From Phycisphaerales bacterium (GTDB lineage Bacteria; Planctomycetota; Phycisphaerae; Phycisphaerales; UBA1924), in contig JADYYE010000118.1 of assembly GCA_020853815.1 (NCBI GenBank), positions 1 through 64,000 of the forward strand: a stretch of 64,000 bases of DNA, written 5' to 3'. Of the stretch, positions 56,715 through 60,186 are shown in pieces; within the stretch, counting starts at the first letter, position 1; each line of letters begins with the position of its first letter. Both the position numbers and the translations under genes were made by a program. Below the pieces are notes generated by a model that was not told the origin of the DNA, searched no databases, and saw only the letters and a list, made by a program, of their open reading frames with translations.

Positions 56715-57599
56715 TTACTTCCCACCCTCCGCTCTCACGTCCGACTTCGCCGCGCCCGGCGTTTGCGTTCCCCCCTGCGGCCCCCCAGTTGGTCCATAGC
56801 TCGCCGCGACGCGCACCCACGTCTTCTCGATCTCGCCCACCATCTTCGAGAACGCCGCCTTCTCGGCACGCAATCTCGAATCATCGATCGCGTCGCTGGT
56901 GGTCCACAGGTTCGCGAGCTGGCTGGCCTTCTCCGTCGCCTCCGCCAGGCCGTAGACATAGCCCGTCCGCGTATCGACCAGCGCCGCCGACGCCGTCGTC
57001 GTCACCTGCGCCTCTTCCGCCGGGAACATCCCCAGCGTGATCGTGCCCAGGATCGGGATCAGCGTCTTGCTCCCGAAGCGCGTGTCGATCGTGTAGACGA
57101 GCACCACGTCGGCCTGCAAATCCGCGGCCGCCAGGCGCAGGCTCTTCTCGTCGTTCACCCGCTCGGGCACGACCAGCCGGTTCATGGGCGCCAGCCCGCG
57201 CACCATGGGCAGCTTGCCGAGCCGCTCCATGTCGACATCGCTCTCGAGCTCGCGGAGCGTGACGACGCTGAACTTTCCCTCGCCGCGCGAGCCGTGGTAG
57301 CTGTGCGAGCGGTAGTCGTTGTCCTGCACGCGCACCGTGGCGATGACCGCGGGGAAATTGGCCGCGGGCTTGCGCGCCAGCCGCTCCGCGATCTCCTTGT
57401 CGGTGAGCAACGCCTGCTGATCCTGCGTGATGCCCAGCGCGCGGAAGTCGGCCGGCCCGCCGGGCACGCTGTAACTTGAACAGCCCCCGAGCGTGGCCGC
57501 GCCCAGCACCATCGCGATGCCCAAACCCACCACGCCGAACACGTTGAACACGTTGAACACGCACAACACGCTGGGCACCGAGGCGAACATTCCACGCAT
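56715..57599 (-). CDS. Lipoprotein, unknown
   Basis: A 294-residue protein. A long hydrophobic signal ends in ATLGGCSSY, a lipobox with the lipidated Cys. The mature part has FRALGITQDQQALLTDKEIAERLA, VVTLRELESDVDMERL, ADVVLVYTIDTRF and a TTASAALVDTRTGYVYGLAEA segment. The alternating strands resemble outer-membrane-associated lipoproteins of the 'ABC-type/TolB-like' scaffold, but I cannot name the family. The signal peptide contains VFNVFNVFGV, encoded by 9-nt tandem repeats (57531-57560). AAGGAGGTG lies just before the ATG at 57599. Confidence 0.75.
   Translation of the reverse strand: MRGMFASVPSVLCVFNVFNVFGVVGLGIAMVLGAATLGGCSSYSVPGGPADFRALGITQDQQALLTDKEIAERLARKPAANFPAVIATVRVQDNDYRSHSYHGSRGEGKFSVVTLRELESDVDMERLGKLPMVRGLAPMNRLVVPERVNDEKSLRLAAADLQADVVLVYTIDTRFGSKTLIPILGTITLGMFPAEEAQVTTTASAALVDTRTGYVYGLAEATEKASQLANLWTTSDAIDDSRLRAEKAAFSKMVGEIEKTWVRVAASYGPTGGPQGGTQTPGAAKSDVRAEGGK
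57531..57560. repeat. 9-nt tandem repeat in a signal-peptide coding region
   Basis: Plus strand GAACACGTT units (gaacacgttgaacacgttgaacac), encoding the NVF repeats of the lipoprotein's signal peptide. Unit gain or loss keeps the frame. Confidence 0.75.
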
Positions 57600-57698: not shown

Positions 57699-57729
57699 TT
57701 GACTGACCGCCCCCCCCCCCCTGTATGTT
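57699..57729 (+). promoter_or_regulatory. Sigma70-type promoter with a 12-C run in its spacer
   Basis: TTGACT (57699-57704) and TATGTT (57724-57729) are separated by 19 nt, of which 57710-57721 are twelve consecutive C. Ten C would give the optimal 17-nt spacing. A GGAG at 57745-57748 and the pseudopilin ATG at 57756 follow. Slippage in the C run would change promoter strength, as known for some phase-variable promoters. Confidence 0.6.
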
Positions 57730-57755
57730 GATATCAGTTGCACCGGAGACCTTGG

Positions 57756-58451
57756 ATGACTCCAGCGCCGGGCCGCCCAACACGCCGCGCCTTCTCGCTC
57801 ATCGAGCTCGTGGTTGTCATCGGGATCGTGATGGTGCTGATCGGGCTGCTCTCACCGATGCTGCGCGGCACATGGTCCGCGGCCCAGGGAAGCAAGCACC
57901 TGGTTCTTGTTCAGCAGCACGCCGTGCTCGTTGATCAGTTTCTCCAGAGCAACAAGGACATCTACCCGCTCCACGGCGTCAACGTCGGCGAGGCGTGGGA
58001 GAAGTGGTACCAGCCACTGGTAAGTTCGGGTCTGCTCTCCGAGAGTGACATCGACGAGAGCAAGAGCGCCAAGGGCGCTCGTGCCGAAGCCTTCGCTATC
58101 TCCGTGGCGATGGTCTATCCGCGCGAGTTCATGCAGCCCGGCAAGACCAAGGAAGACCTGTGGAAGCAACCCAACGCGCCGATCCGCCGCGCCTGGGTCA
58201 CATGGCCAGACAAGAAGGGTCTGCTCTTCGCGCCCCAGGTCGAATGGACCGGGTCGACCGCGGAGAATCCTTATTCCGGCTGGTGCTGCGGCTTCGAGAG
58301 CCCCCCAGGGCCGGTCGCGTTCGCGGACAACCACGCCGAGACACTCCGCTGGACGGATTGCGTCATCGGCGACGAACTCGTGCATGAGAACTTGGTCGGC
58401 CTGCCCGTCGCCACCACATGGGACGGGTTTGCCGGCACAGACAAACCATAG
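57756..58451 (+). CDS. Type II secretion/type IV-like pseudopilin
   Basis: A 231-residue protein with the prepilin signature TRRAFSLIELVVVIGI. Cleavage is expected between Ala12 and Phe13 (Ala replaces the usual Gly), with Glu17 at position +5. A membrane-spanning N-helix is followed by a globular domain with PLHGVNVGEAWEKWY, a late YSGWCCGFESPPG loop with two Cys, and FADNHAETLRW. The C-terminal part resembles planctomycete pseudopilin-like proteins. It begins an operon of four genes. TTG 57738 is a weaker start. Confidence 0.88.
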   Translation: MTPAPGRPTRRAFSLIELVVVIGIVMVLIGLLSPMLRGTWSAAQGSKHLVLVQQHAVLVDQFLQSNKDIYPLHGVNVGEAWEKWYQPLVSSGLLSESDIDESKSAKGARAEAFAISVAMVYPREFMQPGKTKEDLWKQPNAPIRRAWVTWPDKKGLLFAPQVEWTGSTAENPYSGWCCGFESPPGPVAFADNHAETLRWTDCVIGDELVHENLVGLPVATTWDGFAGTDKP

Positions 58452-58464
58452 AAAGGAGCGTCCA

Positions 58465-58863
58465 ATGTCCAAGTTGAAGCAGACTCTCGTCAAGTTCGCA
58501 CTGTTCCTGTCGTTTTCCGTGGCGGCGGCGACACCCATCTGCGTCAAACCATCATTCAGCTGTTCGGGAACGTGCGGGGCTGCGGGATTCACCATTTGCG
58601 AAGAAGGCTACGTCCCGGGCTCGCCTGGCCAGTTCGCGACGCTCCAGATCGTCATCCCCGCGGTATGCACGACCTACGGAAACGCGGCGGACACCGTAAC
58701 CGGCGTTTGCGGTGTGGACCCGCCCGCGGGTTACGATCCGGTGCCGCTGGGTTGCGGTGGCGGACAGGAAGGGCAGTGTTGCTACAAGAAGACTCTTCCT
58801 GCCGGTCCGGTGACAACTGTGTTTTATAAGAACATCATTCGCTATGGAGGCTTTGATTGCTGA
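58465..58863 (+). CDS. Secreted cysteine-rich protein
   Basis: A 132-residue protein with a signal peptide (LVKFALFLSFSVAAA) and ten Cys at residues 26, 33, 37, 45, 68, 82, 97, 105, 106 and 132, an even number and so compatible with five disulfides. GGGQEGQCCYKK and a C-terminal GGFDC stand out. No family is recognised. GAAAGGAGCG precedes the ATG. It follows the pseudopilin by 13 nt and precedes a membrane protein and a MauE-like protein, which suggests a disulfide-dependent folding pathway. Confidence 0.75.
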   Translation: MSKLKQTLVKFALFLSFSVAAATPICVKPSFSCSGTCGAAGFTICEEGYVPGSPGQFATLQIVIPAVCTTYGNAADTVTGVCGVDPPAGYDPVPLGCGGGQEGQCCYKKTLPAGPVTTVFYKNIIRYGGFDC

Positions 58864-58882
58864 CACTTGCGGGGAGGACTCG

Positions 58883-59758
58883 ATGACGCAGCCAGCCGAC
58901 GACCTACACGGTTGGGTTCGCATGTACGTACCGAGCTCGGGTTCCGTATTCGCCGAGTATCGCGCCGCGGGCGAGAACGCATCAAAGGCGATCTTCATCA
59001 ACGCCTACGACGTCAAGAGTCACGCCTGGTTCCGAGTCGGAAGCGCGGGCATCGAGGGGCGAGACCCATCCGGGCGAGGGTTCCGACGCGAAAAGGGCAC
59101 GCACAATATCACGCCCTGGGATGTCCATCCCACCGCGAGCGCCAGCGTCCCCGTCGATCCGACGTTTCCCGCCGTCGCGCTGATCGAACTCGCCCCATCG
59201 CTCGACTCGGCGAAGTCCGCCATGCTTGTCGCCGACTCCAAACTCAAGCTCGAGTTCCTGTGGCCAAAGGGATGGCGCCACTATCAGCCCGGCTACTTCA
59301 AGGAGGGCTTCACCGACCTCACCCCCATCCCCGTCACCTACGTCTACGACGCCGAGCTGCGCCCGTCCAGTCACACCATCGGCGATCAAGACGCGGGGCT
59401 TCCCGTCGAATACGCGCCGAACTCACCGCCCCACTTCCCGGTCGCGCAGGTGACGGCTCGCAGCGCTTGGCAACTCGTCAACCTCGAGTACATCCCCGAA
59501 GGCGACCCCACCAGGTTCACCATCGCGGGCGTCGAGGCTCTCATCCGCAAACGTCCCGATCTGGTCACCAACCCCGACGCCACCATCCGTGTTCCGATCA
59601 AACGATCTTCGGAGCAAGCGGTTCAATCAACCCCCGAGAGTCTTCCCCCCATCGACGCGACCCGCACAACGTCGACGGGCTTCGGCTGGCCGTGGATCCT
59701 CTCGGGCGCTGTGCTGATCGGCATCGCTCTCTTCGTCAAGTATCGCAGGGCTTCGTGA
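58883..59758 (+). CDS. Tail-anchored protein of unknown function
   Basis: A 291-residue protein without an N-terminal signal. The body is beta-rich (GWVRMYVPSSG; HAWFRVGSAGIEG; WRHYQPGYFKEGF), and a single C-terminal hydrophobic segment (WPWILSGAVLIGIALFV) ends in KYRRAS. The start at 58883 has GGGGAGGAC just upstream; ATG 58844 is an alternative that would overlap the preceding gene by 20 nt. It overlaps the next start by TGATG. The family is not recognised. Confidence 0.7.
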   Translation: MTQPADDLHGWVRMYVPSSGSVFAEYRAAGENASKAIFINAYDVKSHAWFRVGSAGIEGRDPSGRGFRREKGTHNITPWDVHPTASASVPVDPTFPAVALIELAPSLDSAKSAMLVADSKLKLEFLWPKGWRHYQPGYFKEGFTDLTPIPVTYVYDAELRPSSHTIGDQDAGLPVEYAPNSPPHFPVAQVTARSAWQLVNLEYIPEGDPTRFTIAGVEALIRKRPDLVTNPDATIRVPIKRSSEQAVQSTPESLPPIDATRTTSTGFGWPWILSGAVLIGIALFVKYRRAS

Positions 59759-60186
59759 TGCTGCGTTCAATCCTCATCCCCAGCGCCGTTCTCGCGGCCG
59801 TGATCTTGCTGCTGCTCTCGGGATTCGAGAAGACGCAGGACGTCACATCCTTCGAGTCGATCCTCAGGTCGCACGCGCTCGTGGCAAGCTCCGACTTGCT
59901 CCCCTTGCTCTCACGGATCATTCCCGTCGGCGAGATTGTCGTTGCGTCTCTCTCAATCTTCTTGCTCCTGCGCAAGCGCCCGCGCCCCGCGCTCCTGCTG
60001 CTTGCGGTCATCGCGGGAGCCTTCGCGTTCTATGCGCTCGCGCTCGTCGTCAATCCGCCGCCCGCTCCCACCAAGTGCGGCTGCGGCGTGCTGCGCGGCG
60101 CCGAGGCCGCCGACTGGACCTTCATCTCCACCACCAACTTTCTCGCCGCCGCCGTCCTCAGCTTGCTTCGGGCCTTCGCGAAGTAG
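59758..60186 (+). CDS. MauE/DoxX-like redox-associated membrane protein
   Basis: A 142-residue protein with four membrane segments. FEKTQDVTSFESILRSHAL is the MauE-type signature, and a KCGCGVLRG loop holds paired Cys. MauE-like proteins take part in disulfide formation or electron transfer for exported proteins. That fits the ten-Cys peptide two genes upstream. It converges on the CPBP gene with 9 nt between stops. Confidence 0.82.
   Translation: MLRSILIPSAVLAAVILLLLSGFEKTQDVTSFESILRSHALVASSDLLPLLSRIIPVGEIVVASLSIFLLLRKRPRPALLLLAVIAGAFAFYALALVVNPPPAPTKCGCGVLRGAEAADWTFISTTNFLAAAVLSLLRAFAK

Follow-up and report, generated by a model that had tools for sequence, protein, structure and literature searches.

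Variation of promoter spacing by simple repeats is known mainly from host-associated pathogens. In Neisseria meningitidis, poly-G or poly-C tracts lie between the −10 and −35 elements of porA, opc and fetA, and tract length sets both the spacing of these elements and the level of transcription (PMC3899988, PMC2791445). In Haemophilus influenzae, the combined divergent promoter of hifA and hifB contains (TA)9–11, and A12 or A17 is found at some copies of hifA (PMC2651432, PMC3899988). Homopolymers have also been described as switch elements across prokaryotes, in a survey that covers tracts within coding genes and whose main text does not mention Planctomycetes (Orsi et al. 2010, PMC2831843). 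Our search of the open-access literature found no description of phase variation in Planctomycetes or Phycisphaerales. To our knowledge, no promoter or transcription start has been mapped in this group.

We analyzed a 64,000-nt stretch of DNA from an uncultured member of the Phycisphaerales (“the window”). On its plus strand, a −35 element, TTGACT (57699–57704), and a −10 element, TATGTT (57724–57729), are separated by a 19-nt spacer (57705–57723) that includes a run of 12 C residues (57710–57721). Transcription is predicted to start at ~57736, and GGAG at 57745–57748 is, by sequence, a good ribosome-binding site for the ATG at 57756. A preliminary description of the window had reported this arrangement of hexamers, spacer and tract, and its coordinates were exact when we re-read the sequence; it was also right that C12 is the longest homopolymer, since there is no other run longer than 8. 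The expected number of C-runs of 12 or more in the window is 0.008 under a first-order Markov model. With both strands scanned, TTGACN-(15–20)-TAnnnT has a single match in the window, the C12 site. As in SSR phase-variable promoters of the porA/opc type, a homopolymer lies between recognizable −35 and −10 elements, and the 19-nt spacing is within or next to the functional range, taken from tract-less orthologs. We consider it probable that this is a σ70-type promoter in which a slippage-prone homopolymer, equivalent to tracts in related promoters, sets the −35/−10 spacing and switches transcription of the operon cell by cell.

The operon has the content previously claimed for it, namely a pseudopilin, a secreted ten-cysteine peptide and MauE, together with a 304-aa protein. 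The first gene (57756–58451, plus strand) encodes a 231-aa pseudopilin with a type IV prepilin N-methylation motif; its match to PF07963 (E = 2.9e-5) is above the gathering score, placing it in the type IV pilin/pseudopilin superfamily. Against TIGR01710, the model for type II secretion GspG, it scores 15.4 bits (cut-off 88.85) and falls outside that family. The second gene (58465–58863, plus strand) encodes the 132-aa secreted peptide, which has ten cysteines and no match in Pfam or NCBIfam, and belongs to an unnamed family with eight near-invariant cysteines in a 46-row alignment. The 304-aa product of the third gene (58844–59758, plus strand; alternative start, ATG 58884) has a C-terminal transmembrane segment and phmmer matches in the operons of relatives. 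The fourth gene (59758–60186, plus strand) encodes a MauE-like membrane protein (PF07291, E = 3.2e-13; 50.5 bits against a gathering score of 27).

Could the tract act on the divergent gene, or on both genes as a two-way promoter? The divergent gene, to which no function is assigned and which has no Pfam match, occupies 56715–57599 on the minus strand and thus starts at 57599, and two-way tract promoters exist in relatives. However, a scan of the minus strand found neither TTGAC nor TAnnnT flanking G12, the complement of C12. The hifA/hifB arrangement, in which a single repeat is shared by two opposing promoters, is therefore not seen here. Since the divergent gene has no −35 or −10 element around the tract, we regard the promoter in the window as one-way and reject the two-way form at this site; action of the tract on the divergent gene is highly improbable.

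The window (contig C233) belongs to a draft genome of 329 contigs and 4.52 Mb. Two matches to the poly-C pattern were found in the whole genome, and none to a reversed-pattern control; the second match (L040) adjoins a tRNA gene and is probably due to chance. TTGAC-G7-TAnnnT occurs at seven sites, again with no match to the reversed control. Most of the seven precede genes for small secreted Cys-rich proteins, such as a 92-aa product with 11 Cys and a 98-aa product with 13; one (L046) looks like chance. Poly-G/C runs of 10 or more in this genome are found at contig ends or, where internal, in promoter spacers (on contigs C118 and C214 and in the window), with one 3.6-kb contig (C306), whose runs are close to its end, being ambiguous between the two classes. 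Contigs C123, C163 and C218 start, and C162 ends, within poly-G/C runs of 12–22; the run in C163 has another gene for a Cys-rich secreted peptide behind it. Assembly may break at tracts of mixed length.

A fragmented draft with contigs ending inside poly-G/C runs is also what one would expect if the tract were a product of sequencing or assembly error, with a true run that is shorter or longer, or of binning. The exact number of C residues may indeed be wrong, but the existence of the tract is not in doubt: the arrangement recurs in some 70–100 independent assemblies, including a single-contig chromosome, and tracts of mixed length would equally leave contig ends inside them. The artefact that the preliminary description wished to see excluded is thus most unlikely.

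The promoter pattern is widespread in the order. TTGAC-polyG(8+)-TAnnnT was found in 71 of 301 Phycisphaerales genomes, representing 53 of 147 genera, and the poly-C form in 45 of the 301; reversed-pattern controls gave only 3 and 5 matches, respectively. We tabulated 145 poly-G sites, leaving the sixth base of the −35 element free in the search. That base is A in 106 of the 145, the tract directly adjoins the −10 element in 91, and the spacer is 16–19 nt long in 93 (exactly 17 nt in 18). Together, the spacing, the abutment of tract and −10 element and the preference for A are properties of promoters rather than of random runs. Across the set, tracts are 8–18 nt and spacers 11–22 nt long, and tract length is anticorrelated with that of the remaining spacer sequence (r = −0.48).

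Genomes studied here have a G+C content of 68–70%, and mutation in such genomes could generate poly-G/C runs, some of which would fall by chance between promoter-like hexamers. Consistent with this, 20 of 26 runs of 8–9 are inside genes in 400 kb sampled at even intervals from a one-contig relative (G164; 3.61 Mb). However, runs of 10 or more in the same sample do not follow the fall-off seen among shorter runs and are concentrated after TTGAC, which is present within 16 nt upstream of 7 of 14 such runs but only 1 of 26 runs of 8–9. The genes behind the tracts are not a random set, and the reversed-pattern controls are almost empty. On the strength of these controls we reject a chance origin of the tract-promoter pattern, and the chance that the tract in the window arose in this way is very small. 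The G164 genome has 340 G/C runs of 8 or more, as compared to 40–56 in three relatives.

First genes behind tract promoters typically encode exported proteins, with signal-like N-termini in 108 of 130. Cys-rich products account for 39 of the 130, as compared to 8 of 267 genes in the G164 sample, a background in which the gene caller misses proteins under 90 aa. We used the G164 genes because a tract-less control from the same loci comprised only 15 genes, too few to compare cysteine content (Cys-rich products, p = 0.23); for signal-like N-termini, this control gave p = 0.013. A family of ~370-aa secreted proteins also recurs behind poly-G promoters (L047, L073, L087, L094, L098, L118, L119, L126 and L127); the L047 member has no Pfam match above the cut-off and no NCBIfam match. 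At seven loci (L047, L065, L073, L107, L118, L119 and L130), the predicted start codon is 6–7 nt after the −10 element, a distance that suggests leaderless transcripts from these tract promoters.

A pattern scan of genome contigs found poly-G-spacer promoter patterns in many phyla, among the matches listed, and this type of promoter is therefore not specific to Phycisphaerales. One record (L269; QWIH01000013) bears a cyanobacterial name, “Leptolyngbya sp. PLA1”, although over 2 kb its sequence is the same as that of a genome of the Phycisphaerales family (G190); it is apparently a mislabelled MAG. Sequence identity is complete between a congeneric genome (G214) and Phycisphaerales bacterium SJ353 (JADLFE01) over the 3 kb compared, and between another genome (G206) and Phycisphaeraceae bacterium ACE_PLA16 (JAHBXE01) over 2.2 kb. 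The named records L269, L319 and L320 are the same assemblies as genomes of relatives, and are thus uninformative on strain-level variation.

Orthologs of the operon provide a more direct comparison. A protein search identified ~53 relatives of the pseudopilin that match it over its full or nearly full length, distributed over many genera of the family; none was a full-length ortholog from the three same-genus genomes searched. We read 50 upstream regions from this subfamily, counting C/G runs of 7 or more. Poly-G/C is present in 29 and (TG)n in 3, giving 32 of 50 with a repeat, nearly always in the spacer, and about one third of the promoters have no repeat. Other pseudopilins have no such repeat upstream (0 of 15; Fisher p = 8e-6). 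The (TG)n cases (L147, L151 and L158) come from three members of one genus (g22), with different repeat numbers at the same spacer position. The tract comparison called for by the preliminary description hence shows repeats that differ in kind (G, C or TG) and in length, with spacers that cluster around the functional range. The recurrence of the arrangement at many independent loci, including those of the operon's orthologs, supports the proposal of a promoter that can be switched by spacer length.

Spacing in the subfamily is 13–22 nt for tract-bearing promoters (33 sites) and 16–20 nt, with a mode of 17 nt, for tract-less promoters (12 sites), and its variance is greater among the tract-bearing promoters (standard deviation 2.2 vs 1.1; Levene p = 0.009). 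In an exploratory, post hoc observation, none of the 33 tract promoters has a spacing of exactly 17 nt, as compared to 6 of the 12 tract-less promoters. Although spacers of 17 nt do occur in the wider set (18 of the 145 sites), such a deficit would be expected if assembly had mostly captured tracts at non-optimal lengths. In two sister species with similar flanks, the spacers are 20 and 19 nt long; such differences in repeat length at corresponding loci of relatives are also a feature of porA/opc-type promoters. Paralogs within a genome can differ further: two that are 94% alike downstream (G013) have spacings of 11 and 16 nt. However, a second pair, 87% alike downstream (G164), has kept 19 nt in both copies despite substitutions. 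Equal spacing in some paralogs would fit either a low rate of slippage or stabilizing selection on spacing.

Repeats also occur near the start of the pseudopilin gene in other positions. In a few copies, the C/G run is outside the promoter spacer; at one of these (L196; G071:C7), C10 immediately precedes an ATG near the beginning of the gene, and the switch may here take a translational form. In genus g34 (L146, L207 and L153), GGGCAT/GGGCAC hexamers are repeated in tandem where the gene for this pseudopilin starts, which multiplies the start codon immediately downstream of the −10 element.

An alternative explanation casts the tract as a fixed element of the promoter, such as a GC-rich spacer, a regulator site or a G-quadruplex, with its length kept by selection. 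The centering of total spacing on 16–19 nt, the anticorrelation of tract length with the rest of the spacer and the paralogs that hold the same spacing would all fit such an element. However, G and C on the coding strand and TG dinucleotides are all found in this role within one operon family, which argues against recognition of any single sequence or quadruplex. Furthermore, the wide ranges of tract and spacer length across the order, and the greater variability of spacing with a tract than without, also speak against a fixed length. We consider a fixed element unlikely, and favor a tract whose length varies by slippage.

The association of the pseudopilin with the Cys-rich peptide is close. 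A gene for a secreted peptide directly follows the pseudopilin gene in 45 of 49 copies, and 46 aligned peptides have a proline in common in addition to the eight near-invariant cysteines. Further downstream in relatives, MauE is often present, and a ~300-aa protein is encoded at several loci. Two-way tract promoters were found at four distinct loci in three genomes (L081, L095, L096 and L108). These are near-palindromic, for example TTGACAGAATA…tract…TATTCTGTCAA, and each strand has its own −35 and −10 elements flanking a single tract; the pseudopilin gene is on one side and the Cys-rich gene on the other. Pseudopilin and Cys-rich genes are thus tied to one tract in two gene orders, which suggests that their products function together. 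The module they form appears to be undescribed so far. A similar two-way pattern was seen in an Oscillibacter record (L287).

How might the switch operate? Replication slippage would add or remove C residues in the tract, and the number of C residues would move the spacing through the functional range, from 19 nt with 12 C to 17 nt with 10 C, the spacing typical of tract-less orthologs. The whole operon, from the pseudopilin to MauE, would be turned down or up in individual cells, and the assembled promoter, with C12 and 19 nt, is probably in a weak state. The product would be an apparatus that is secreted or surface-located, with the pseudopilin possibly helping to export or assemble the disulfide-rich peptide and MauE possibly contributing to the peptide's thiol chemistry. 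The sequence comparisons suggest that these bacteria randomly switch a secreted Cys-rich protein system, much as pathogens switch surface proteins. For Phycisphaerales as a whole, we lean slightly toward a broader proposal, that phase-variable promoters with poly-G, poly-C or TG repeats jointly randomize the expression of secreted Cys-rich peptides and their partner pseudopilins across the lineage.

If this is correct, planctomycetes that are not known as pathogens would have a system of contingency loci, possibly driven by phages, predators or competitors, and the module under randomized expression would be an undescribed secretion or surface module. The spacer-repeat arrangement recurs in a planctomycete order and accompanies one particular, unnamed gene pair. 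The linkage of this pair to tracts gives a concrete handle on the role of the eight-Cys secreted peptides, and the model predicts cell-to-cell variation that could be visible in metagenomic reads.

Like porA, opc and fetA, the nearest mechanism on record, the locus described here has a homopolymer inside the −35/−10 spacer and an exported product. Switching is established for the Neisseria genes, whereas for the planctomycete locus it is proposed from sequence. The settings also differ, with an uncultured planctomycete in place of a mucosal pathogen and a pseudopilin/Cys-rich peptide module as the target. The resemblance to hifA and hifB is of another kind. The copy in the window is one-way, its repeat is a mononucleotide C/G repeat, and its target is a pseudopilin rather than a chaperone-usher pilin. 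Nonetheless, a spacer repeat controls pilin genes in H. influenzae and would control a pseudopilin gene here, in both cases the type of repeat is replaceable at homologous loci, and in relatives of the planctomycete, as in H. influenzae, one tract serves two divergent genes, here those for the pseudopilin and the Cys-rich protein.
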